A DNA stretch of 64,000 nucleotides, from contig JAJDUI010000009.1 in NCBI GenBank assembly GCA_022826745.1, positions 1-64,000 of the forward strand. Direction: 5' to 3'. The position numbers and the translations under genes were made by a program. Source of the stretch: Thermoanaerobaculia bacterium (GTDB taxonomy: Bacteria; Acidobacteriota; Thermoanaerobaculia; Multivoradales; Multivoraceae). The number at the start of each line of letters is the position of its first letter. Position 1 is the stretch's first letter. The notes under the pieces were generated by a model, which was not told where the DNA came from, did not search any database, and saw nothing but the letters and a program-made list of their open reading frames with translations. Positions 15,865 through 30,295 of the stretch are shown here, piece by piece.

Positions 15865-17043
15865 ATGGGCGACGACACCGTGGAGGCAGGGCTGGCGGAA
15901 GGGGCCGGGGACGACGGGGCGCCGAGGCACTCGAGCCGCGATGCCGTCCGCCTGGAGCGGTTGCGGCAGGCCGCGGCCTCGGCCGGCGCGGACGCCGTCG
16001 TGCTGACGCCGGGAGCCACGTTGACCTGGCTCCTGGGCCACCACTTCGACGGCCACGAGCGGCTCTTCCTGCTCATCGTGCCGACCGCCGACGCTCCGGT
16101 GGCCATCGTCCCCGCGCTGGAGGAGGCCAACTTCCGCGGCGTCGCGCCGGCGGTCGAGTCGGTGCACCTCTGGGACGACGCGGACGGTCCGGAGGAAGCC
16201 GCGGCCGCGGCCTTCAAGGGCCTCGGAAAGGCGTCGCGGGTGGCGGTCGAACCGCTCAGCCTGCGCTACATGGAGGTCCAGCACCTGTCCCGCGAGCTTC
16301 CGAAGGCGAAGCTCGAGAGCGCCGAGTCGATCGTGAGCGAACTGCGGCTCAAGAAAAGCGACGAGGAGGCGAAAGCGATCCAGCAGGCGTCGAAGATCGC
16401 CGAGGCGGCGCTCGAGTTCACGCTGCGGGACGTCAAGCCGGGACGCACCGAGCGCGAGATCGCGGCCAAGCTCTCGAGCGAGCTGCTTCGTCGCGGCGGG
16501 GGCGGCATCTCCTTCGGCCCGATCGTTCTCAGCGGTCCGAAGAGCGCTCTGCCCCACGGGGTGCCCGACGAGCGGGAGATGGAGGAAGGCGAGTTCCTGC
16601 TGATCGACTTCGGGACCTCGTTCGACGGCTACCACTGCGACATCACCCGCACGTTCGTCGTCAGCGGCTCCCCGACGGACCGCATGCGGGAGGTCTACGA
16701 GGCCGTGCTGCAGGCGAACATCCGCGGAGTGGCGGCGTCACGTCCCGGCGTCACCTACGAGTACGTCCACAAGAACTGTCAGGCGAACCTGCGTGCCGCG
16801 CGCTTCAAGGAGTTCATGACTCATCGCACCGGCCACGGCCTGGGCCTGGAGATCCACGAGCCGCCGTCCGTGATGGCGGGCAACACCGACGTCGTCGAGG
16901 AGGGGGCGGTGTTCACGATCGAGCCGGGCCTCTACCTGGACGGCTGGGGCGGCGTGCGGATCGAGGACAACGTCCGGGTGACCGAGCAGGGCTGCGAGCT
17001 TCTCACCTCGTCGCCGAGGGAGCTGCGAATCCTCGGCGCCTAG
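15865..17043 (+). CDS. M24 family metallopeptidase (Xaa-Pro aminopeptidase-like)
   Basis: 392 residues. It has an N-terminal creatinase-like domain (about 25-150) and a C-terminal pita-bread catalytic domain. The five metal ligands are visible: the two aspartates in LLIDFGTSFDGYHCDITRTF, the histidine in HRTGHGLGLEIHEPP, and the glutamates in FTIEPGLYL and VRIEDNV. Enzymes of this type remove N-terminal residues ahead of proline using two Mn or Co ions. There is no signal peptide, so it is cytoplasmic. The last four bases overlap the convergent receptor gene. Confidence 0.9.
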   Translation: MGDDTVEAGLAEGAGDDGAPRHSSRDAVRLERLRQAAASAGADAVVLTPGATLTWLLGHHFDGHERLFLLIVPTADAPVAIVPALEEANFRGVAPAVESVHLWDDADGPEEAAAAAFKGLGKASRVAVEPLSLRYMEVQHLSRELPKAKLESAESIVSELRLKKSDEEAKAIQQASKIAEAALEFTLRDVKPGRTEREIAAKLSSELLRRGGGGISFGPIVLSGPKSALPHGVPDEREMEEGEFLLIDFGTSFDGYHCDITRTFVVSGSPTDRMREVYEAVLQANIRGVAASRPGVTYEYVHKNCQANLRAARFKEFMTHRTGHGLGLEIHEPPSVMAGNTDVVEEGAVFTIEPGLYLDGWGGVRIEDNVRVTEQGCELLTSSPRELRILGA

Positions 17044-20000
17044 AAATGAACCCGCAGGCCGATCTGGCCGCGGCGGCTGTCTCCCAGGCCGCTGCGGATC
17101 GTGCCGTCGAAGTTGAAGAGCAGGGAGCCCTGGGAAGCGTCGAGGCGGTTGTCGGCGTTCGTCAGGTTGAAGATCTCGAAGACCGGTTCGAGGGTGACGC
17201 CGCGGCGGAGCGTGAAGGGGCGTGACAGGCGGATGTCCCAGGTGAGGAAGTCGTTGTCGCGCCGTAGCGTGTTGCGCTGAAGGACGCGGCCGTCGGCGCA
17301 GATGCGGTCGGACGGCTGGGCGGCTCTCTGGCCCGGGTCGGCGCAGGATTCCGACACGGGCGACGCCGACAGGTAGCGGAACACGTTGCTGAACTGGACC
17401 TCGCCGGGGAGGGCGAAGAGCAGGTAGCCGGCGACCTGGTGACGGCGGTCGCGGTCGGACCAGCCGAACTCAGGCCCCAGGCTCGTGGGGTCGGCGTAGC
17501 GGAAGGTGAAGGGATCACGCTCGTTGTCGTCGTCGGAGCGATCCCGGCTGAAGGTGTAGTTCACCTCGAAGGTGAGCAGTCCGTCGAAGGCGTCGCGGCC
17601 GCGCAGGGTCGCGGTGAACCCGTCGTAGCGCGAGCGTGCCGAACTCTCCGTGTTGTTCAGGGCGTTGATGCCGCCGCCGCCCGGATGGGTGCCGATGCCG
17701 AAGGGTGACCCGAAGGCCAGGTGGTTCCGGTCGACGAAGCGGAAGAGTTCATCCGTCCGGGCGTGCTGGTAGGCGAGTTCGGCGGTCAGGCCGCGGCCCA
17801 GCCGGCGCTCGTAACCCGCGCCGAAGGACCAGGTCTCGGGCAGTTCGAGGTCCCGGTCGACGACCGTGATGTCGGGCAGGAAGGGCAGCGTGTCCGAGCC
17901 GTCGATCTGCTCGTCGATCGACGGCACCGCGCCGAGCGCCGGCGAGGCGGCGCTGCTCCTGAACAGGACCTGCTGGAAGGCGCCGTTCGTCGTGCGTGGA
18001 CCGGCCAGGACCAGGCTGGGTATGCGGGAGACGTAGGAGCCTGCGTTCAGCCGCAGCACGTTGGAGCCGTCGCCCGAGGCGTCCCAGACCATGCCGAGAC
18101 GCGGCTGGAAGTTGTCGAGATCGTCGGGGATCGTGCCGTCCGAGGGAAACCGCGGGTCATCCAGGTAGGGCGCGAAGTATGTGTTCTCCGGTTCGATCAG
18201 CGGGTCCGGATTCCAGGTTCCTTCCCAGCGGAGACCGAGGTTCAGGACGACCCGGTCGCTCGCCTGCCAGGTGTCCTGGAGGAAGAGAGCGACCTCGTCG
18301 ACGTCGAAGGCCTGCCTGCCCAGGTCCTCCGGCGGGATGCCGGGCACGGTGGCGGCCTGCAGGTAGAGGAGGACGGGTCCGGTGATCTCGGCCCCCTGCG
18401 GGCAGGCGCCGGCGGCGCTGCTCGATCCGTCCGAGCAGGTGACGTAGCCGTTCCCTTGCTCGACGAAGTTGATGAAGCCATCCACCGAGTCGAAGATGTA
18501 GCGGCTGTTGCCGAAGCCCAGGAACTGCTGGGCGATGCCGGTCCGGTTCGCCTCGATGCCCGCCTTGACCAGGTGGTCGCCGAGCAGCGTGGAGACGTTG
18601 TCGACGAGCTGCTGGCGGTCGTCCGCCGCGTCGGCGCCGATCGGCAGGAAGAACGGCAGGCCGATGCGGAAGCCGTCGGCGAAGTCCATCGCGATGTCGG
18701 GGAAGGGCCTGCCCCCGAGAACCCGGTACGGCGGCTGGGGCGGCGGCTCGACTCCCGGCTGCAGCGGTCCGCCGTAGCGTCGCGGCCGGTGCTCGCGCGC
18801 CCATTGCAGGCGGAGCTCGTTCGAGGTCCGGTTGCTGAGGAGGGAGCGCAGGCTCAGGTTGACCGCGTGCGAGTAGTCCTGCTCGATGCCGTTCGCGGAC
18901 AGGCCCCAGGAGTCGACATCGAAGGTGCCGTTCTCCTGTTCGGACCATGTGTAGTTGTACTTGACCGACGCCTGGTGGCTTTCGCTGAGGTTGAGGTCCA
19001 GCTTGGCGATCAGGGCGCGGTTGTCGTCGGTGCGCTCGATGGGACCGAACTCGTCGTCGAACAGGCCGGGCCAGCGGTTCCGCAGGAAACGGTCGAGCCG
19101 CGCCAGGTTGGCGGGGCCGGCGACGCCGCGCACGAGTTGCTTGGTCTCCGAGGCGTCCTGCTCGTCGTAGGCGCCGAAGAAGAACACCCGCTCGCGCCGG
19201 ATCGGCCCGCCGAGCGTGAAGCCGTACTGCAGACGCGAGAAGTCGGGCTTCGCCGCTTCGCCGGAAGGATGCTCGGTCGAGATGCCGTCCCACTGCCGGA
19301 ACGTATGCATCGTGCCCTCGAGCTCGTTCGTGCCGGACTTCGTGATCACGTTGACGAAGCCGCCGGCCGAGCGCCCGAACTCGGCCGTCGCGCCCTGGTT
19401 GATGACCACCATCTCCTGGATCGCGTCCTGGTTGAAGGTGAAGGCCGGGCGCTGGCCGCCCCGTTGCTCGCCGAAGAAGGAGTTGTTGAAGTCGGCGCCG
19501 TCGACGATGAAGTTGTTGAAGATGCCGCGCTGGCCGCTGATGTTCAGCTCGTCGCCGTCCGGCCCCTGTGAGAGTGAGGCGCCCGGCGTGAGCAGGGTCA
19601 GGTCGAAGAAGTTGCGGCCGTTCGTGGGCAGGCCCTCGATCACTTCGTCGGCTAGCCGCTGGGAGGTCGTCACGTCTTCGGTCGCGGGCGTGCCGTAGGC
19701 GTCCGTCGACACCGTGATCTCCTCGGCGACGACCTCCTTCAGTTCGATGTCGAGGTTCAGACTCTCGCCGACGCGAAGCGTCAGGCCGTCGATCCGCTCC
19801 ATCAGTCCTTCGTCGTCCCTGGTCACGATCAGTTCGTAGGAACCAAGCGGCAGCAGCGTGCGGGCGAAGGTGCCCGTGGCCGTCGTCTGCACGGATGTCA
19901 CGAACCCCGTCTCGGCGTGCTGGATCAGCACCTGAGCACCGCCGACAGTGGCTCCATCGGGCCCGCGGACCGTGCCGCGGATGATGCCGGTCGTCGCCTC

Positions 20001-20093
20001 GGACTGGGCGGCGGCCGGTACGGTTCCGGCTGCCGCCACGCCGAGGCCTACGGCAGCCAGTAAGGACTGTATGCGTCGAAACCGAGGCCTCAT
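17040..20093 (-). CDS. Oar-like TonB-dependent outer-membrane receptor
   Basis: About 1,017 residues. A signal peptide (LLAAVGLGVAAAGTVPAAAQ) leads to a carboxypeptidase-regulatory-like domain (GIIRGTVRGPDGATVGGAQV), then a plug (TNGRNFFDLTLLTPGA; FGRSAGGFVNVITKSGTNE) and a large barrel that ends in an aromatic residue (IGLRVHF). This is the Oar/CarboxypepD_reg-TonB architecture common in Acidobacteriota. Such receptors take up oligomers or complexed nutrients with energy from TonB. The substrate is unknown. The ATG at 20093 is preferred; a GTG at 20111 in frame would add six residues. It is divergent from the LuxR gene, and its promoter must lie close to that gene's dyad promoter. Confidence 0.88.
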   Translation of the reverse strand: MRPRFRRIQSLLAAVGLGVAAAGTVPAAAQSEATTGIIRGTVRGPDGATVGGAQVLIQHAETGFVTSVQTTATGTFARTLLPLGSYELIVTRDDEGLMERIDGLTLRVGESLNLDIELKEVVAEEITVSTDAYGTPATEDVTTSQRLADEVIEGLPTNGRNFFDLTLLTPGASLSQGPDGDELNISGQRGIFNNFIVDGADFNNSFFGEQRGGQRPAFTFNQDAIQEMVVINQGATAEFGRSAGGFVNVITKSGTNELEGTMHTFRQWDGISTEHPSGEAAKPDFSRLQYGFTLGGPIRRERVFFFGAYDEQDASETKQLVRGVAGPANLARLDRFLRNRWPGLFDDEFGPIERTDDNRALIAKLDLNLSESHQASVKYNYTWSEQENGTFDVDSWGLSANGIEQDYSHAVNLSLRSLLSNRTSNELRLQWAREHRPRRYGGPLQPGVEPPPQPPYRVLGGRPFPDIAMDFADGFRIGLPFFLPIGADAADDRQQLVDNVSTLLGDHLVKAGIEANRTGIAQQFLGFGNSRYIFDSVDGFINFVEQGNGYVTCSDGSSSAAGACPQGAEITGPVLLYLQAATVPGIPPEDLGRQAFDVDEVALFLQDTWQASDRVVLNLGLRWEGTWNPDPLIEPENTYFAPYLDDPRFPSDGTIPDDLDNFQPRLGMVWDASGDGSNVLRLNAGSYVSRIPSLVLAGPRTTNGAFQQVLFRSSAASPALGAVPSIDEQIDGSDTLPFLPDITVVDRDLELPETWSFGAGYERRLGRGLTAELAYQHARTDELFRFVDRNHLAFGSPFGIGTHPGGGGINALNNTESSARSRYDGFTATLRGRDAFDGLLTFEVNYTFSRDRSDDDNERDPFTFRYADPTSLGPEFGWSDRDRRHQVAGYLLFALPGEVQFSNVFRYLSASPVSESCADPGQRAAQPSDRICADGRVLQRNTLRRDNDFLTWDIRLSRPFTLRRGVTLEPVFEIFNLTNADNRLDASQGSLLFNFDGTIRSGLGDSRRGQIGLRVHF

Positions 20094-20140
20094 GGCGCCA
20101 ATCGTAGCCACTTCCCCGGCCGAGTGCCGTGCGGATTCGT

Positions 20141-20186
20141 CCCCTCAGTTTTGAGGGCGTCGGGCCTGCGGACATCACGGTACAAT
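20141..20186 (+). promoter_or_regulatory. Dyad promoter 1, ahead of LuxR regulator 1
   Basis: The dyad CCCTCA-GTTT-TGAGGG lies at 20142-20157 and a -10-like TACAAT at 20181-20186. The -35 region is poor, so an activator is probably needed. The dyad centre falls about 43 bases before the predicted start. This is one of four copies in the window; the shared block continues as GCGTCGGGCC after the dyad. Confidence 0.65.
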
Positions 20187-20250: not shown

Positions 20251-21414
20251 ATGGCGAATCCCCTCGGAGTAGCCGCTCAACTGAAGTCATGCGTAGCCAC
20301 CCTGCAGGAGGCTGCGTTCGACGAGGACCGCTGGGCGGCCGCTTCCCGATCCATCGACGACGCCTGCGGGCTCCTTAGCAGCCATCTTGTTGTGCTGGCC
20401 GGGCGGCACTCTGTCCCGGAGTTCCGCTTCAGCCGAGCCCTGATTCGCGGTGAAGCCGTAGCGGAGGTCGAACGGATCTACGTCGAGGAGTACGCGTTTC
20501 GGGATGAGCGCGTGCCCAGGGTACGAGACCTGCCGAACGCGCGCCTAGTCCACAACCGCGAGATATACACCGCCCAGGAGCGCAGAACCTCGGCTGTCTA
20601 CAGCAGCTTCCTGCCTCGGGTCGGTTCCAACAACCAGTTGAACGTGCGCCTCGACGGACTGCACGACACCGACATCGTATGGGTCGTGACCAAGCCGGCC
20701 GACCGTGACTGGACCTCGGAGCAAGCGGCCTTCCTGGAGCGTCTCCTTCCGCACGTGGCTCACTTCGTCCGTGTCCGTCAGGCGTTGGCGGCGGCGGATG
20801 CCCGGGATTCCTCGCTCGCGGGGTTGATTGAGAGGGCAGGCCTGGGGGTGCTCTTCCTGGACCGGCAAGGCCGCGTGCTGGAAGTGAATCCTCGCGGCCG
20901 CGCCCTGCTCTCGTTCGGCCACTGTCTAGCGGAGAGTGACGGGCGGTTGCGGGCCTCATGGCGTGGCGACGACGCCCGGCTGGGCCGGTTGCTCTCCGCT
21001 TGCTGCGAAGACGGCGTCGGCGGCACGATGACCCTCCGGTCCGCCGGCAACGGCGCCGGGGCCGGCCCGCTGGTGCTCCATGCCTGTCCCGTTCCGCCCG
21101 ATCTGACCAGTTTCGACACCCGTGGCATCGCCGCGCAGGTGCTCCTGACCGAGCCGGAAGCCGGCCCCACGGTCGACCCCCGTCTCGTGGCGGAGGCCTA
21201 CGACCTGACGCGTACCGAAAGTCAGGTGGCGGCTCTACTGGCGGAGGGCCGCACGGTCGGCGAGATTGTCGCGTCCACCGGCCGCAAGGAGAGCACGGTC
21301 CGCTGGCACGTGCGGAACCTCCACTCGAAGCTCGGCGTGCACCGCCAGGCGGACCTCGTGCGCCTCGTACTGGCGACGGCCGTCGGTGCGACTCAGTTCA
21401 ACGGCGAGGAATGA
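20251..21414 (+). CDS. LuxR-type regulator 1 with a sensor domain
   Basis: 387 residues. The first ~180 residues form a GAF/autoinducer-type sensory region that I cannot name precisely. It is followed by a PAS-like segment (GLGVLFLDRQGRVLEVNPRG, about 195-215) and a C-terminal LuxR/GerE HTH (LTRTESQVAALLAEG ... STVRWHVRNLHSKLGV). No receiver domain and no LuxI homologue is nearby. A dyad promoter lies about 60 bases downstream of the divergent receptor's start, ahead of this gene, so it probably regulates itself. The paralogue downstream starts 10 bases after the stop, giving a two-gene operon. The ligand is unknown. Confidence 0.85.
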   Translation: MANPLGVAAQLKSCVATLQEAAFDEDRWAAASRSIDDACGLLSSHLVVLAGRHSVPEFRFSRALIRGEAVAEVERIYVEEYAFRDERVPRVRDLPNARLVHNREIYTAQERRTSAVYSSFLPRVGSNNQLNVRLDGLHDTDIVWVVTKPADRDWTSEQAAFLERLLPHVAHFVRVRQALAAADARDSSLAGLIERAGLGVLFLDRQGRVLEVNPRGRALLSFGHCLAESDGRLRASWRGDDARLGRLLSACCEDGVGGTMTLRSAGNGAGAGPLVLHACPVPPDLTSFDTRGIAAQVLLTEPEAGPTVDPRLVAEAYDLTRTESQVAALLAEGRTVGEIVASTGRKESTVRWHVRNLHSKLGVHRQADLVRLVLATAVGATQFNGEE

Positions 21415-21424
21415 AGCCGGCTCC

Positions 21425-22549
21425 ATGGACAAGATCGTTGGCCTCCTGCAAGAAGCGGTTTTCGACGAAAGTCGCTGGACGAATCTGGCCTCCTCGATCG
21501 ACAGTGCCTGCGGGTTGACCGGGACCCAGCTGGTCGTGGCTCCCGATGCGAACGGCTCGGTCCCGGACTTCCACTTCGGTCGAGCGCTGATACGCGGCGA
21601 GCCGCGAGAAGATCTGGAACTCGAGTACATCGAACGGTACAGGCACCGGGACGAGCGTTTACCTCGGATGCGGGCGATGAGCCTGGGAAGGCTGTACCAC
21701 AACACGGACCTGCTTACGGAGAGCGAGCAGAAGACGTCACCCGTGTATGCCGGCTTCATCCCGCGCTTCTGCAGCAACGATCAGTTGAACGTGCGTGTTC
21801 GCGGCCACAGGGGCACGAACATCTTCTGGTGCCTCAGCCGACCGATGGACGGCGGCGGCTGGTCGTTCGAGAACGTGGAGCGAATCGGACGGCTGGTGCC
21901 GCATGTCGCGCACTTCGTTCGCGTGCGGCAGGCGTTGGCTGCCGCCGACGCGCGCGGCGATGCCCTGGCGGCTCTGCTGGACCGTACAGGTTTGGGTGTC
22001 CTTCATCTCGACCGCGGCGGCCGGGTGCTGGAAGCGAACGAGCTTGCGCGCCGCGTGTTGGCTGAGGGCGACTGCCTCACGCAGAGGGACGGCCACCTGC
22101 GAGCCTCCGCGCGCCACGAGGACGCGGAACTGGGGCGGCTGCTGACGGCCTGTTGCGAGCGGAACATTGGCGGGTCGATGGCGCTATGGCGTCTCGGCGA
22201 TACACATGCCGATCCCCTGGTTCTGCACGCATGCCCGGTCCCCATCGACCGCGGCAGCTTCGGGGCCGGCGGCGTTGCCGTTCAGGTGCTGCTGACCGAA
22301 CCGGGCTCCGGCCGCCGGGTCGATCCCGGACCCATCGCAGCGGCCCATGGCCTGACGCGAACCGAGGCCAAGGTCGCGGCTCTGCTGGCGGAGGGCCGGA
22401 CGGTCAGTCAGATCGTCGCGTCCACGGGCCGCAAGGAGAGCACCGTGCGCTGGCACGTGAGGAACCTCCACTCAAAGCTCGGCGTGCATCGCCAGACCGA
22501 CCTCGTCCGACTTGTGCTGGCGTCGGCCGTCACGGCGCCGACCGAGTAG
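21425..22549 (+). CDS. LuxR-type regulator 2, tandem paralogue
   Basis: 374 residues from ATG 21425 (MDKIVGLLQEAVFDESRW). It aligns with regulator 1 along its whole length. Both share the QLNVR motif, the LVPHVAHFVRVRQALAAADAR-type linker, a PAS-like segment (GLGVLHLDRGGRVLEANELA) and an almost identical HTH (STGRKESTVRWHVRNLHSKL). The near-identical recognition helix implies both bind the same site, while the sensor halves have drifted, which suggests different inputs or heterodimers. It has no promoter of its own and is read with regulator 1. Confidence 0.85.
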   Translation: MDKIVGLLQEAVFDESRWTNLASSIDSACGLTGTQLVVAPDANGSVPDFHFGRALIRGEPREDLELEYIERYRHRDERLPRMRAMSLGRLYHNTDLLTESEQKTSPVYAGFIPRFCSNDQLNVRVRGHRGTNIFWCLSRPMDGGGWSFENVERIGRLVPHVAHFVRVRQALAAADARGDALAALLDRTGLGVLHLDRGGRVLEANELARRVLAEGDCLTQRDGHLRASARHEDAELGRLLTACCERNIGGSMALWRLGDTHADPLVLHACPVPIDRGSFGAGGVAVQVLLTEPGSGRRVDPGPIAAAHGLTRTEAKVAALLAEGRTVSQIVASTGRKESTVRWHVRNLHSKLGVHRQTDLVRLVLASAVTAPTE

Positions 22550-22607
22550 TGGGCCGGGCTGAACGCCCGCACGCGCCCGGAATCGACAGAGTCCCGGTCG
22601 TGACGGC

Positions 22608-22653
22608 CCCCTCAGTTTTGGTGGCGACGGGCCGCGCGTTCCGGCACTACGGT
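22608..22653 (+). promoter_or_regulatory. Dyad promoter 2, ahead of the HTH-only gene
   Basis: The left arm CCCTCA is intact at 22609-22614 and the right arm is changed to TGGTGG. The downstream block GCGACGGGCC is kept and a -10-like TACGGT sits at 22648-22653. The leader that follows is about 160 bases long. It contains a strong AGGAGG and a possible 14-codon reading frame starting at GTG 22689 and stopping at 22733. Confidence 0.5.
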
Positions 22654-22818
22654 AGGGCCTTGCCCCGAACGGTAGGAGGGAAGGAACCGTGAACTGCCCC
22701 ATCTCGTCGAGTCGCCGGCCGCCGGCCGCCTGAGTCGTGGCCGAGGAGGCCTTGAAGAACGCCAAGTTGTCAATGCCGGTCGCCTCGTTCTTGAGGGCGG
22801 GGCCGGAACGTCGCGACG

Positions 22819-23067
22819 ATGAGAAATCGCGACGGCGTTGATCTGCGAACCCTGGCGAGAAAGTACGGTCTGACGCCCGCTGAACGCAGGGTGGCGGCGC
22901 AATTGGCGCTAGGCCTCACTGTCAGGGAAATCGCAGCGTCCACCGGCCGCCGCGAGAGCACGGTGCGTTGGCATGTCCGAAACCTGCACTCGAAGCTCGG
23001 CGTCCACCGGCAGGCGGACGTGGTGCGGCTGGTGTTGTCAGCGACGAACGCAGGGAAACTGGAGTAG
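22819..23067 (+). CDS. Stand-alone LuxR-type HTH protein
   Basis: 82 residues, consisting almost only of the C-terminal domain of regulators 1 and 2. It begins at the point matching 'VDPRLVAEAYDLT' of regulator 1 and runs through STGRRESTVRWHVRNLHSKL. The sensor and PAS parts are absent. No good Shine-Dalgarno precedes the ATG. It could be a GerE-like small regulator that competes with or works without ligand at the dyad sites, or the relic of a third duplicate. A degraded dyad promoter lies 170-210 bases upstream, which favours it being expressed. Confidence 0.65.
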   Translation: MRNRDGVDLRTLARKYGLTPAERRVAAQLALGLTVREIAASTGRRESTVRWHVRNLHSKLGVHRQADVVRLVLSATNAGKLE

Positions 23068-23295: not shown

Positions 23296-24753
23296 ATGGT
23301 TGTGAAAGAGACCGGCATGGATTCCAGGGAACGCATGGGCGAGGAGATCGCTGCGCTCGCGGCCCGCATCGAGGCCGCGACGTACGAGCTGCTCGTGCTG
23401 ATCCGCGAGTTCGATGAGAAGGAAGGCTGGAACTGCGGCTTCCTCAATTGCGCCCGTTGGCTCTCCTGGCGTATCGGTCTGGCCCCCGGTGCCGCCCGTG
23501 AGCGGGTGAGGGTGGCCAGAGCCCTGGGTGAGTTGCCGCTGATCAGCGAGGCGATGAGGCGGGGCGAACTCTCCTACTCCAAGGTAAGGGCCCTGACCCG
23601 CGTGGCCCGGCCCGACACGGAGAAGGAGTTGCTGGATCTCGGCAAGGCGGGAACGGCGGTCCATGTCGAGCGTGTCGTCAGGGCGTGGCGGAGGATCGAC
23701 CGCACGGTCGAGGCGCGCGAGGACGAGTTGCGTGACGCGTCGAGCTGCGTGACGACCCACATCGACGAGAACGGCATGTTCGTCATCCGGGGGCGTCTGG
23801 CGCCGGAGGCGGGCGAGGTGCTGAGGAAGGCGCTCGATGCCGCTGGCGAGAAGCTCTACGGCGAGCAGGCCGAGCGGCCGGAGGACCGGCCTCCGGCCGG
23901 GAAGGTCCGTGCCGAGGCTCTGGCCCTGGTGGCGGAGAGCGCGCTGAAGGGAGGTCTCGATCCCGGATCGAGCGGCGATCGCTATCAGGTCGTCGTTCAT
24001 GTCAGTGAAGAGGAGCTTGGAGGCCGGCAGTGCGAAGCGAGCGAGTGCCGCTGCTGCGTTCCCGCGGGAACGCAGCAGGCGGTCGAGGTCGGTGGCAGTG
24101 CCGCTCCGGGAAGGAACGGGGACGTTCCCGCGGGAACGCCAGCCGCTTCAGCGGACGGCGGTGCCTGGATCGGCGATTGCCACGTTCGCGTTTCCGCGGA
24201 AACGGCCCGTCGCATCGCCTGCGACGCGGGAAGGGTCGTCATGCGGGAGCGTTCGGGGCAGGTTCTGAGCGTTGGCCGCAAGACCCGGACCATCCCGCCG
24301 CCCATCCGTCGCGCTCTCGAGTTCAGAGACCAGGGCTGTCGCTTCCCCGGGTGCACGTCGCGACACTGCGACGCCCATCACATCGAGCACTGGGCCGACG
24401 GCGGCGAAACGAAGCTCTCGAACCTCGTTCTCCTCTGCCGGCGGCACCACCGCCTGCTCCACGAGGGCGGCTTCAGCGTGCGGATGACCGAAGACGGCGC
24501 CGTGCAGTTCTTTGATCGACGGGGCCGGCCGATCGAGAAGAGCCCGGCGCCGCCTCCCGTCGGCAATGACGCTGCCCGAGAGTTGATCGAAGATCTGGAA
24601 GACGCAGGCATCCTGATCACCGGAAGGGAATCGATCCCCGCCTGGGACGGCCGACCGATGGACCTTCGCTACGTCATGGAATCCCTGTGGCGGCCGCCTC
24701 CGCATCTGGAGGCTGTGGTTGCCCGGGAGAGGGAAGCCGCGCGGGTCGCGTAG
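23296..24753 (+). CDS. DUF222/13E12-type protein with C-terminal HNH nuclease
   Basis: 485 residues from ATG 23296, which has GGAGG five bases upstream. The DUF222 region (about 15-235) includes WLSWRIGLAPGAARERVRVA. The C-terminal HNH motif reads CRFPGCTSRHCDAHHIEHW, then LSNLVLLCRRHHRLLHEGG, with zinc cysteines and the H-N-H residues present. The linker (about 250-305) holds two VPAGT units encoded by near-identical palindromes, and a third related palindrome encodes VSAET at the edge of the conserved domain. Proteins of this type are abundant, often multicopy, and of unknown role; nuclease activity is predicted. A strong hairpin overlaps the stop codon. Confidence 0.85.
   Translation: MVVKETGMDSRERMGEEIAALAARIEAATYELLVLIREFDEKEGWNCGFLNCARWLSWRIGLAPGAARERVRVARALGELPLISEAMRRGELSYSKVRALTRVARPDTEKELLDLGKAGTAVHVERVVRAWRRIDRTVEAREDELRDASSCVTTHIDENGMFVIRGRLAPEAGEVLRKALDAAGEKLYGEQAERPEDRPPAGKVRAEALALVAESALKGGLDPGSSGDRYQVVVHVSEEELGGRQCEASECRCCVPAGTQQAVEVGGSAAPGRNGDVPAGTPAASADGGAWIGDCHVRVSAETARRIACDAGRVVMRERSGQVLSVGRKTRTIPPPIRRALEFRDQGCRFPGCTSRHCDAHHIEHWADGGETKLSNLVLLCRRHHRLLHEGGFSVRMTEDGAVQFFDRRGRPIEKSPAPPPVGNDAARELIEDLEDAGILITGRESIPAWDGRPMDLRYVMESLWRPPPHLEAVVAREREAARVA
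24056..24204 (+). repeat. Three palindromes inside the HNH gene
   Basis: GCGTTCCCGCGGGAACGC at 24056-24073 is an 18-bp perfect palindrome. CGTTCCCGCGGGAACG at 24123-24138 repeats it. CGTTTCCGCGGAAACG at 24189-24204 is a diverged perfect palindrome. All are read in the same frame (VPAGT, VPAGT, VSAET). Confidence 0.85.
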
Positions 24754-24889: not shown

Positions 24890-24934
24890 CCCCTCAGTTC
24901 TGAGGGCGACAAGCCTCCTGCCCGTGGCTAGCGT
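24890..24934 (+). promoter_or_regulatory. Dyad promoter 3, ahead of the secreted fibronectin-like gene
   Basis: The dyad CCCTCA-GTTC-TGAGGG is perfect at 24891-24906, followed by CGACAAGCC and a -10-like TAGCGT at 24929-24934. Block and spacing match promoter 4 at 29759 closely. The predicted leader is about 90 bases. Confidence 0.65.
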
Positions 24935-25033: not shown

Positions 25034-27589
25034 ATGATGAGTTCGAGTGGAGTCTGGATGGTCGACCTGAGTGATCGCACTGCGCGTTCTCGCGTGCGGA
25101 AGCCGCTGCGCACGGGGCTACCTGGAGCAGTGGCGATTGCGGCGGGGGCAATGGTGTTCTCGTCGGCGGCCGCAGCGCAGGCGCCGCCGGAGCCGCCCGC
25201 TTCGTGCGCAAGCGTGTCGGTCGAGTCGCTCGACATATGGGATGACCGCATAGAGATCGTGACAATGCCGGACTCCGTGGAGTTCGGTTGGAACGCGCCT
25301 GAAGACGGGCTCGACTATTGGGGGCCCTTGGCCGAGTCGAACAACTCATGGGTTCTCTGCTTGCCGACGGTGCCCGGATTGACCAGCTCCTACGTGGCGC
25401 TCGACAGGTGGCATGTTTGGCCGCTGACGACTGTCTTCGACGGGCTGGTGCCGTTCGCGGGGCTGGACCACGAAGTGTCGACTGAAGCCATGGTGATCAG
25501 AGGGTTGGCTCCGGGTATCGACTACTGGGTCAGGTACGTCTACATTCGCATCGTCTTTGACGAAGAGGGGACAGCCGTAGGCGAGCCGGCCTTAACGAAC
25601 TGGATTCACTTCCGGCTCGAAGGGCCGTTGCAGTTGCCGGCTCCCGTGAACGTGCACGGGGCGGGCCTATGGGGGCCGCGGCGGTTGGCGTCGAACGAGA
25701 TCGCGGTGTACTGGTCGGCGTTCGCCGGTGGCGGAGTCGTCGAGTCCTTCCAGGTTCGTTCGAAGGAAGCCACGAGTGCCAACTGGAGCGACTGGTCGGA
25801 GGTTCCGGGCGGGCCGGAAGCCAGATGGCACACGTTGGATGGTCTGACTCCCGGAACTCGGTACACCTTTGAAGTGAGGGGGATCAACTCGGCGGGCGCA
25901 GGTGCGCCAACCCGCGTCGTGGGAGTGCCTCGACCGGACTCGCGCACATTCGATGCGCCATGCCCTCTGGATGACCGGCTCGGCGAGCCCTCGGCAGTTC
26001 ACAACGAGAAGGTCTGGATGGCGAGGCAGGAGGAAGAGTCCTTTCGTGCGACCTCCTCCGGGACGGCCGCACTCTTCGGCTGGTTCGTCGACGGCGAACC
26101 GACTCCGGAGTCGGTCGAGTACAACGTGTGTCGACCGGTCTTCCCTGGCTCGAGCCGGTACCGTGTCGAGAGTGCGATGCGGAGTCCTGAGGATCTGGGT
26201 TTTGTCGGACGACTCCGTGCCGACGAAGGCTACGCCGTCGCGCTGGACGGGCTTGCGCAGGAGGACCAGTACTGGATTCAGGCGGTCCATCAGCCATCGT
26301 CGGATGAAGGAGGCGAAGTCGAGGTCACGACCTGGATCCGCGTCGACGAAGCGTATTGGCGCTTCGAGGTGAACCGGGCGCGCACTCTCCCCTACTGGGA
26401 CCACCGGCTTCCGGCGTTCGAGCGGCGGATGGGTTACGAGTCCTTTCCGGGCATCCTGGAGACGTTCGGTGGTAACGTTCCCTTGCGCGCGCCGGCCGCA
26501 CCGAGCACCGTGAGGGCCTCGGAACAGTCATCGGACAGCGCGGTTCTTCGATGGGAGCCCTCCACGGCTGGCGGCAGGGTAGAGGAGTGGCAATACCGGA
26601 CTGCCAGGGAGTCAGGCGGCGGATGGACCCGATGGCGAGCCATGCCCGGCGAGGCGGATCGCCTCACCCATGTCGTGGATGGCTTGACTCCCGGAGAGCG
26701 CTACACGTTCGAAGTCCGTGGTGCGAACAGCGAGACCGCTGGAGCGTCGACGACCGACTCCCTCCAACTCTCGACGGAACCCCCTTCCGGTTGTAGCGAA
26801 GCCGCTGGGTCTACGGCCGAAGTCAGCGCCGTCTGCCTGGGCGGCGGTCGCTTCCGCTTCGAGGCAACGTGGGAGTCCCAGCATGACGGCCGCCGAGGCG
26901 CGGCGCAGATGCGCCGGTTGACGGAAAGCACGGGCGTGGCCACCTTCTTCGACACGGACAACGTCGAACTCGTGTTCAAGGTCCTCGACGGCAGGGAGGC
27001 GAACGGCAACCACTGGGTCTTCTACGGCGGGATGACGGACCTCGGATACACGCTGACCGTGACCGATACGCAGACCGGCGAAGTCAAGAGCTACCGGAAC
27101 GAACCGGGCAGCACATGCGGCGGCGGCGACACGACCGCGTTCGGCGCGGCCAGCGCCTCGTCGGCGACGGCGGGCGGCTTCGGGTCGATCGGGCTCTTCT
27201 CAGCCCGGACGGCGACGCCGTGGGCCAGATCGGTACAAGCGGCTCTCGGCTGTCCCGGAGATGCACTGTGCCTGGCCGGCGGACGGTTCGACGCAACCGT
27301 GGAGTACACGAATCCGGCCACTGGACTCGTCGGAAGCGGCCGTCCGATGCTCGGAACCGACAACACAGGCTACATGACCTTCTTCTCGCCCGACAACGTC
27401 GAACTGGCGATCAAGGTGCTGGACGGGCGGGCCTTCAACGACTCCTACTGGGTGTTCGCGACTGGACTCACGGATGTGGACTACACGGTCACGGTCAAGG
27501 ACATGCTCGGTGGGGACGTGAAGACCTACGACAGTCAGGACGCGGATTCCTTCTGCACGTTGCAAGACCTAGAGGCGTTCCCGCAGTGA
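25034..27589 (+). CDS. Secreted fibronectin-III-like protein with two C-terminal Cys modules
   Basis: About 851 residues from ATG 25034, with GGGAGG seven bases upstream. A long signal sequence (GAVAIAAGAMVFSSAAAAQA) precedes a repeating plan: an unnamed beta-type unit (about 55-195, 'FGWNAPEDG'), an FN3 domain (about 200-300, ending LTPGTRYTFEVRG), a second such unit (about 320-460, 'FGWFVDGEP'), and a second FN3 (about 485-582, LTPGERYTFEVRG). Two copies of a Cys-bounded module follow (about 587-704 and 736-851), each with FF(D/S)xDNVEL..KVLDGR and a 'YT.TV.D' strand. I associate that module with secreted acidobacterial proteins. Surface adhesion or matrix function is likely; no catalytic residues are seen. 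It is driven by a dyad promoter. Confidence 0.82.
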   Translation: MMSSSGVWMVDLSDRTARSRVRKPLRTGLPGAVAIAAGAMVFSSAAAAQAPPEPPASCASVSVESLDIWDDRIEIVTMPDSVEFGWNAPEDGLDYWGPLAESNNSWVLCLPTVPGLTSSYVALDRWHVWPLTTVFDGLVPFAGLDHEVSTEAMVIRGLAPGIDYWVRYVYIRIVFDEEGTAVGEPALTNWIHFRLEGPLQLPAPVNVHGAGLWGPRRLASNEIAVYWSAFAGGGVVESFQVRSKEATSANWSDWSEVPGGPEARWHTLDGLTPGTRYTFEVRGINSAGAGAPTRVVGVPRPDSRTFDAPCPLDDRLGEPSAVHNEKVWMARQEEESFRATSSGTAALFGWFVDGEPTPESVEYNVCRPVFPGSSRYRVESAMRSPEDLGFVGRLRADEGYAVALDGLAQEDQYWIQAVHQPSSDEGGEVEVTTWIRVDEAYWRFEVNRARTLPYWDHRLPAFERRMGYESFPGILETFGGNVPLRAPAAPSTVRASEQSSDSAVLRWEPSTAGGRVEEWQYRTARESGGGWTRWRAMPGEADRLTHVVDGLTPGERYTFEVRGANSETAGASTTDSLQLSTEPPSGCSEAAGSTAEVSAVCLGGGRFRFEATWESQHDGRRGAAQMRRLTESTGVATFFDTDNVELVFKVLDGREANGNHWVFYGGMTDLGYTLTVTDTQTGEVKSYRNEPGSTCGGGDTTAFGAASASSATAGGFGSIGLFSARTATPWARSVQAALGCPGDALCLAGGRFDATVEYTNPATGLVGSGRPMLGTDNTGYMTFFSPDNVELAIKVLDGRAFNDSYWVFATGLTDVDYTVTVKDMLGGDVKTYDSQDADSFCTLQDLEAFPQ

Positions 27590-28398: not shown

Positions 28399-29705
28399 GA
28401 GCTTGCTGAAGAAGTGGTGTTGCCGGCCTTGGACCGCGTGTGCACGGGAGCTCCGAGCTAACTCGGGGCCGGTGAAGTGGTGGGTATTGCGCGTGCGACG
28501 GACGGGTTGAGGTATGGAGCACGGTTTGAGGCACGGTCAGCGCCCCGATTCGACCCCGGAGAGGTGGCGTCGACGCGCTGCTGCGTCATGCCGCAGCCTC
28601 AAGGTGAGCTATTCGGAGGATATTGAATGAGCCAGCGTTCCAGAGCATCACCCAGTTCCTCTTCCGACAGTCTCTGAACATCGGCCGGCCAAGCAGTCCG
28701 TACTGCTTCATCCAGCCGATCGAACCCTCCACGGCAGGTCTCTTGCGCACGCTTGCCGTGTAACCGGGATGACGGATCGTCCGGCCGTCGACCCGGCTGC
28801 GGCGCCCCTTCCGGCTCTGAATCACGTGCGGCGTCGCGTGCAACGCTCGAGCGCCCTCGACGAACGAGATACTGTCGTACAGCTTGTCGCCGCCCACGGT
28901 GACACGGTGGTTTCCCGGCAGGCTCTCCAGGAGATGCAAGGCGCCTTCGGTTTCCGCCGCGCCCTCCCCGATCGCCACTTCGGCGCCAATCAGACCGTTC
29001 CGGTTCTCCGTCAGCACGTTGCCCTGGTACGACAGACGGGCCTCCTTGCCACGCCCCTTGCGCATCAGCCGGCACTCCGGGTCCGTCCTCGATTCGTGAG
29101 TGTCGTTCTTGCGCTCCTTGCCGCGGAACGACGGGCCGCCCTCGTCGTCATCGCTGCCTTTCGGCCGGAAGCCCTTGTGAGACGCCCAAGCCTCGATCAG
29201 AGTCCCATCCACTGTGAAGTGAGCCCGAGACAGCAGGCGCTGTCTCCCCGCACGCTCGAGGACCGCCTCGAAGGAGGACCGGGCAACCGCCTCGTCGAGC
29301 ACCCGGTCCCGATTCTTGGTGAACGTCGTCGCGTCCCACACCCGCTCGTCCAGGTCTAGCCCCACGAACCAGCGGGAACAACATGTCGAACTCCAGACGC
29401 TCCATCAACTGCCGCTCGCTGCGTACGCTGTAGAGGGCCTGCAGCAGCAGCGCGCGAAGCAGATGCTCCGGCGGCACCGACGGACGGCCGCGCTTCGAGT
29501 ACAACTCCTCGAAACGAGGCGACAGCGACGCCAGAGCCTCGTCCACGATCGACCGGCTGCGCCGAAGCGGGTGACGCTGGGGAACCCGCTCCTCCAACGA
29601 CACGTAGCTGAGGAGCCTCGTCGCCGATTGACCCCTGCCGCGCATGGAACTGACCTCCTGAGACAGATCCTATGACGCCGCAACTCCCCTTTTTCAGCAG
29701 GCCTC
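28399..29705 (-). mobile_element. IS5-type insertion sequence with CTAG target duplication
   Basis: The 1,307-bp element is bounded by imperfect inverted repeats: GAGCTTGCTGAAGAAGTGG at the left end and, read inward from the right end, GAGGCCTGCTGAAAAAGGGG. It is flanked by CTAG at 28395-28398 and 29706-29709, the target length and type seen in IS5-family elements. It carries one transposase gene, which is frameshifted. About 190 bases between the transposase stop and the left end hold no gene. Confidence 0.85.
28586..29645 (-). pseudogene. IS5-family transposase, frameshifted
   Basis: It starts at ATG 29645 with AGGAGG upstream. The N-terminal DUF772-type part runs SYVSLEERVPQRHPLR ... RSERQLMERLEFDMLF, then leaves frame. 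The other frame continues WFVGLDLDERVWD, through FTVDGTLIEAWASHKGF (first catalytic Asp) and a DKLYD segment, to the DDE-type C-terminus ending NILRIAHLEAAA. One extra base in the run GGG at 29373-29375 (CCC on the coding strand) accounts for the shift. It is either an inactivating insertion or a programmed frameshift; the short C run makes simple inactivation likelier. Joined, it would be about 350 residues, normal for the family. Confidence 0.85.
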
Positions 29706-29758: not shown

Positions 29759-29803
29759 CCCCTCAGTTGTGAGGGCGACAAGCCTTCTCAGCGGATCTAC
29801 GAT
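29759..29803 (+). promoter_or_regulatory. Dyad promoter 4, ahead of the small Cys-rich secreted protein
   Basis: The dyad CCCTCA-GTTG-TGAGGG is perfect at 29760-29775, followed by CGACAAGCC and a -10-like TACGAT at 29798-29803. The predicted start near 29810 puts the dyad centre about 42 bases upstream. It lies 50 bases outside the insertion sequence. Confidence 0.65.
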
Positions 29804-29842: not shown

Positions 29843-30295
29843 ATGCGAGTCACCTATTGTCTGATGCTTGCCGCCGGAATCTCGCTAGTGGTCGCGCCGA
29901 TCGCTGCGGACGATTTCTTGCCCGTGGCGGCTACGTCGATGGGATCCTGTTCCGCTCTCGGGCCCGCTACGAGTTTCTCGGCCGGTACCGAGTTGGACTT
30001 TCTGACTGAAGAGTCGTGGTACTGCACCGTGTACTGGTATTGCGGCGGCAATACGAAGTCCGGCACTGCTTCTGGTTCAAGTACGAGCAAGGACAATGCT
30101 TGTCATCGTGCGAGAGCCAGCGCTTCGAACCAAACTTGCCCGAGGGGAGGCACCCCTCACATGTACGATTGCGAATGCACCAAGTCCGACGCGGCGGAGG
30201 TCTTCGAAGCGGTCGAAGCTCCGATTCCGGGTCGGACGCGCTCCGTGGTGCGGCCCGGTCAGGGTGGTGGCCGTCCTGACCGGGCTGAGCGATAG
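29843..30295 (+). CDS. Small secreted cysteine-rich protein
   Basis: 150 residues from ATG 29843, with AAGGAGG five bases upstream, one of the best ribosome sites in the window. A signal peptide (YCLMLAAGISLVVAPIAA) ends near residue 22. The mature part is Ser/Thr/Gly-rich and contains seven cysteines in GSCSAL, WYCTVYWYCGG, NACHR, TCPRG and YDCECTK, so disulfide bonds are expected outside the cytoplasm. I do not recognise the family. The C-terminal ~15 residues (rich in R, G and P) are encoded by a hairpin sequence and may be an untranslated-like tail. It is driven by dyad promoter 4, as the larger secreted protein is by promoter 3. A secreted signal, toxin or matrix component are all possible. 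Confidence 0.7.
   Translation: MRVTYCLMLAAGISLVVAPIAADDFLPVAATSMGSCSALGPATSFSAGTELDFLTEESWYCTVYWYCGGNTKSGTASGSSTSKDNACHRARASASNQTCPRGGTPHMYDCECTKSDAAEVFEAVEAPIPGRTRSVVRPGQGGGRPDRAER
30253..30285 (+). repeat. 11-bp inverted repeat at the 3' end of the Cys-rich gene
   Basis: GCCCGGTCAGG (30253-30263) pairs perfectly with CCTGACCGGGC (30275-30285) across an 11-base loop. It ends eight bases before the stop codon and has no T tract. It may act as the transcript's terminator although it lies in the coding frame. Confidence 0.55.

Follow-up and report, generated by a model that had tools for sequence, protein, structure and literature searches.

In the window (the whole 64,000-nt stretch of DNA from a Thermoanaerobaculia bacterium that was analysed), two tandem genes for LuxR-type regulators are followed by a small gene that encodes a GerE-type HTH domain without anything else. 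This arrangement raises the question of whether the three proteins act on one DNA target, and of what a copy lacking the sensor would add to such a circuit. A preliminary description of the locus had placed the two regulators and the sensor-less copy correctly (Table 1), and all three proteins exceed the Pfam cut-off for GerE (PF00196; 38.0, 38.7 and 40.8 bits versus a cut-off of 23.5). The gene for regulator 2 starts 10 nt past that for regulator 1, a gap that makes it probable that both form one operon. As had been described, the two regulators align end to end (60% identity) with divergent sensors and a nearly identical HTH: identity was 54% for the sensors and 76% for the C-termini, and the core of the recognition helix was almost the same in both. 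The small protein aligns to regulator 1 from residue 307, past the PAS-like domain, so the small gene does start at the sensor/HTH boundary, as claimed. Its best match among solved structures was GerE (1fse, E 4e-4).

Table 1. Genes and dyads of the locus, with their positions in the window
Feature	Position	Strand	Remarks
Dyad CCCTCAGTTTTGAGGG	20142..20157	+	Upstream of regulator 1; -10-like TACAAT at 20181-20186
Regulator 1	20251..21414	+	387 aa; predicted LuxR-autoinducer-domain/GAF-like fold at ~1-180, PAS-like at ~190-300, GerE HTH at residues 319-372
Regulator 2	21425..22549	+	374 aa; architecture as regulator 1
Dyad CCCTCAGTTTTGGTGG	22609..22624	+	Upstream of small gene; -10-like TACGGT at 22648-22653
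Small HTH-only protein	22819..23067	+	82 aa; GerE domain alone; purifying selection
DUF222/HNH endonuclease gene	23296..24753	+	Island passenger; no dyad ahead of gene
Dyad CCCTCAGTTCTGAGGG	24891..24906	+	Upstream of FN3 gene; -10-like TAGCGT at 24929-24934
FN3 protein gene	25034..27589	+	Candidate target; putatively exported; start codon inferred
Dyad CCCTCAGTTGTGAGGG	29760..29775	+	Before 150-aa orphan gene; -10-like TACGAT at 29798-29803
Orphan protein gene	29843..30295	+	Candidate target; 150 aa; signal-peptide-like N-terminus

The comparison with relatives covered 21 genomes of the genus. The relatives are MAGs with the labels Thermoanaerobaculia, Holophagales or Acidobacteria, and their bin names may point to sponge samples. 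An island with an intact small gene was found in six sister genomes (G013, G003, G004, G014, G006 and G017), that of G006 being a contig fragment and that of G017 being split over two contigs; G010 carries an island with one regulator from which the small gene is absent. The number of regulators per island ranges from one to at least five, and units composed of the small gene, its dyad and an FN3 gene are duplicated in G017. In the five genomes inspected in which the island is absent (G018, G009, G005, G007 and G002), the TonB receptor gene of the left flank is in every case joined to the genes of the right flank. Regulator 2 of G003 (L060:11345-12469) is a mosaic that combines the sensor of one lineage with the HTH of another: its DNA is ~80-91% identical to that of a G004 regulator across most of the sensor and shows, from ~nt 800-850, 87-97% identity to regulator 2 of the window over most of the HTH part. 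At least one exchange of sensors on a shared HTH has thus taken place. A phage origin of the island was considered and rejected, no relatives having been found in viral contigs. A distant paralogue elsewhere in G003 (G003:C11:240006-241122) seems to be split in two adjacent frames, and is perhaps a broken regulator gene.

Searching the 4.39 Mb genome for the dyad motif with at most one mismatch returned four matches, all on the + strand and within 10 kb at the island; a reversed-pattern control of the motif gave no matches in the same genome. By our own arithmetic, the chance of four random matches all falling in one 10-kb stretch is about 1e-8. At each of the four sites a TAnnnT sequence begins 38-39 nt from the dyad's first base, a fixed spacing that would place the dyad centre near position -42, and no -35 box is evident at these promoters. 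Class II LuxR boxes are centred near -42. The dyads therefore appear to occupy the class II position, replacing the -35 box, as far as this position can be read from the -10-like TAnnnT. The palindromy of 13 sites was 0.71, compared with at most 0.50 among 2000 shuffles. In the sister genomes, too, dyads stand before regulators and small genes and ahead of genes whose products are putatively exported; their letters vary by clade (CCCTCAGTTnTGAGGG, CTCCCAGTTTGGAG, CCTCCCGATATTGGGGG, CCCCCAATCTTGGGGG), while their place and form are constant. The dyads upstream of regulators are weaker variants in G013, G003 and G017, and G010 has no clear one there. The right half-site of the dyad before the small gene is weakened in the window, and likewise in G013 and G003. 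A dyad look-alike at 22783, kept in G003 and absent in G013, was rejected as a site. The TonB-receptor gene at 17040-20111 was also discarded as a target: the orientation and spacing of the dyad point to regulator 1, and the receptor is present in genomes lacking the island.

A sequence-only promoter model was built from 16 island sites and searched in the 21 genomes; one G017 site, misplaced in the promoter alignment, was left out of it. All 27 matches with E<0.05 fell in island contigs, and none was found at this threshold outside island contigs or in genomes without the island. Most of these matches are training sites or near-copies of them, and their confinement is not a product of construction. 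The informative part of the search is thus this confinement, plus two sites outside the training set, one before a regulator in G017 and the other, in G004, before the gene of a 188-aa protein that is putatively exported. A weak match (E 0.05; L055:6814-6849, in G017) lies before an ORF with a signal-anchor-like N-terminus and may mark a further target. The helix STVRWHVRNLHSKLGVHRQADLVRLVL is nearly invariant across all island regulators and small proteins, while the recognition helix differs in the two distant paralogues from other loci that were compared. Thus, the proposal that all three proteins would have one DNA target is supported by the comparison, as is the suggestion that the dyads before regulator 1 and the small gene, which are real, would serve feedback.

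In the AF2 model of regulator 1 (mean pLDDT 79.5, pTM 0.51), the best structural match of the N-domain was CepR2 (Z 15.4, rmsd 2.6 over 162 residues), followed by CviR (Z 14.9), LasR (14.4) and phytochrome GAF domains (~11); the domain is therefore predicted to have a LuxR autoinducer-domain-like fold. However, the isolated N-domains gave no match to Autoind_bind (PF03472) up to E 10, nor did any protein of the whole genome, the E. coli control being positive, and an N-domain profile matched the sequences of solved structures by chance only. Comparison by eye with the ligand residues of TraR (W57, Y61, D70, P71, W85 and G113) paired Y77 with Y61 and D85 with D70, with E86 replacing P71; no counterpart of W57 could be read in the regulator sequence. 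The proteins thus have a predicted fold in common with AHL receptors but, lacking an Autoind_bind match, cannot be classed with them, and to judge from their sequence they are not canonical AHL-LuxRs. The reported absence of LuxI nearby holds at the locus but means little for regulators of this kind; a genome-wide search for LuxI (PF00765) was empty, its positive control being likewise silent. The sequence gives no support to the quorum-sensing frame (LuxR/LuxI) in which the locus had been set.

Two of the dyads, at 24891 and 29760, were absent from the preliminary description, and the genes behind them stand out as candidate outputs. The FN3 protein, which contains two fn3 domains and two C-terminal domains of a family with 45 matches, and the 150-aa orphan protein both start with a signal-peptide-like stretch, as does every inspected non-regulator ORF behind a strong dyad. 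Both are putatively exported and appear to be controlled by the dyad. In G014, a gene behind a dyad (L057:14585-16246) resembles the hCaCC (calcium-activated chloride channel) model over residues 203-386, possibly a VWA-type region. A transposase gene (28586-29660; DDE_Tnp_1/DUF772-like), apparently split in two frames, sits between a DUF1353 gene and the dyad of the orphan gene.

The gene anatomy and its conservation, the confinement of the dyads, the insertion site and the mosaic regulator were observed directly, and the locus is best read as an accessory island with a regulatory system complete in itself. In the window's genome, one palindromic element, apparently common to all the regulators, is confined to the island and stands also before its genes for exported proteins, so that the island has the look of an autonomous switch governing proteins that are secreted or at the surface. 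We consider it fairly probable that the regulators and the HTH-only protein bind this one dyad and activate the regulators, the small gene and the genes for exported proteins, with the small protein as an amplifier. Specifically, the full-length regulators, once their sensors are engaged, and the small protein, through the same recognition helix, would bind the island-specific CCCTCAGTTnTGAGGG-type dyad near -42 and activate transcription of the operon that encodes the regulators, of the small gene and of the target genes. Having no sensor, the small protein would most likely activate independently of any signal, making the response stronger and longer by positive feed-forward and autoregulation. 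The sensors would be interchangeable, arrays growing, shrinking and recombining at the sensor/HTH boundary while the HTHs and dyads stay matched. From sequence alone we infer dyad binding, the direction of regulation, the role of the small protein and the export of the targets. The preliminary description had thus anticipated the single target, the feedback dyads and a conserved small gene; the output genes and the accessory island with variable sensors were missing from it. A wider reading, offered tentatively, is that of a modular signalling island in which sensors are swapped onto a common HTH and a private promoter, the sensor-less HTH protein serving as a shared hub or latch. If true, the lineage could replace the signal to which its surface proteins respond and leave the regulon wired as before, and animal-associated bacteria possibly use such islands to control proteins for host contact.

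Rather than amplifying the response, the small protein might compete with the full-length regulators. The sensors would induce it by way of the dyad before its gene; it would then occupy the dyads without activating, or form inactive heterodimers, and so exert negative feedback. The common recognition helix and the dyad before its own gene agree with this, and the weakening of that dyad in three genomes is what would be expected of a late, high-threshold response; furthermore, the small proteins have substitutions in common that set them apart from the full-length HTHs (ADVVRLVL vs ADLVRLVL). The sequence proves neither activation nor repression in the island. However, the known stand-alone GerE domains, GerE and ClbR, are activators or dual regulators that need no ligand, and ClbR is an activator encoded inside the gene island under its control (PMC7364221). 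The truncated LuxR inhibitor TrlR, which is also encoded next to full-length relatives, keeps the ligand domain and has no HTH (PMC4338825), whereas the small gene shows the reverse truncation, with the HTH kept and the sensor absent. By analogy, the precedents of GerE, ClbR and the LuxR C-terminal fragment favour an activator role, and we regard the competitor as unlikely, if still worth weighing.

Two further alternatives question the small gene and the dyads themselves. The small gene resembles the end of a full-length gene and has a weak Shine-Dalgarno sequence; it might be what is left, without function, of a duplicated regulator that decayed up to its 3' end. Yet each of the seven genomes with this gene has it intact, so that the frequent breakage in relatives that was to count against its proposed function is not seen; its dN/dS is 0.08-0.20, the small-protein HTHs form one clade of single origin (support 96/88), it has its own conserved dyad promoter, and remnants of a sensor were not found upstream. 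A gene that is intact, under purifying selection and of one clade is not debris, and a relic is hardly credible. In its make-up the protein resembles the stand-alone GerE-type regulators, being HTH-only and encoded by a gene conserved in seven genomes. The dyads, in turn, might serve recombination or be mobile repeats by which the cassettes of the island are shuffled, instead of binding regulators. They are found in the intergenic spaces of a variable island, and in G017 whole units are duplicated. This reading is improbable: the dyads keep a constant orientation and spacing to the -10 before gene starts, orthologous promoters are more alike across genomes than are different promoters within one genome, and the sites sit where a LuxR-type box is expected.

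In the window, the weak ribosome-binding site, a leader of ~160 nt and an upstream ORF of 14 aa make translation of the small gene uncertain. This ORF (22689-22733; 14 codons, GTG start, MNCPISSSRRPPAA) has a strong Shine-Dalgarno sequence and is a possible leader peptide; in G003 and G013 it is conserved better than the part of the leader that follows it. In G004, G014 and G017, an in-frame ATG lies ~8-9 nt past the -10 (MAPPAGRAGDDPAARDN...), and the transcripts may therefore be leaderless; these small genes probably start at that ATG, which would give an N-terminally extended protein of ~97 aa.

The components of the island are known singly (LuxR-type sensors, stand-alone GerE domains, class II dyads). 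The regulators have a length similar to that of the BagY/FevT-type regulators (NF041232), which belong to antibiotic clusters of actinomycetes, and the match covers residues 80-371 of regulator 1 (E 6e-8), but at 31.9 bits as against a cut-off of 700. They recall LuxR solos in an N-domain predicted to fold most like a LuxR autoinducer domain, and in the C-terminal GerE HTH, but differ in their size (~380 versus ~240 aa), the extra PAS-like domain and the lack of an Autoind_bind match. Tandem LuxR solos have been described (PMC4338825). The small protein has a single GerE HTH without a sensor, as GerE and ClbR do; in the island, however, this stand-alone domain coexists with full-length paralogues, with which it shares one recognition helix and apparently one dyad. 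Arrays of tandem LuxR and HTH-only genes in Acidobacteriota were not found in the open-access literature searched, and the searchable papers yielded no description of a variable array of sensors together with a conserved HTH-only member of like recognition helix and a promoter element confined to one accessory island that carries genes for putatively exported proteins.

At one DNA element, several paralogous sensors and a copy lacking the sensor compete or cooperate here, a small natural system that comes with about seven related genomes of differing copy number and with empty sites as controls. It opens to direct test how paralogous activators remain on one target as their sensors drift apart, and what such a circuit gains from a copy free of a sensor. 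In this uncultured lineage, the FN3 and orphan proteins, both putatively exported, are candidates for a part in contacts with a host or at the surface, and FN3-domain genes have been reported to be enriched in sponge-associated MAGs (PMC8163846). The C-terminal domain of the FN3 protein (26798-27586) belongs to no Pfam family and has 45 matches in the genome, mostly in long open frames elsewhere; this unnamed family is worth describing.
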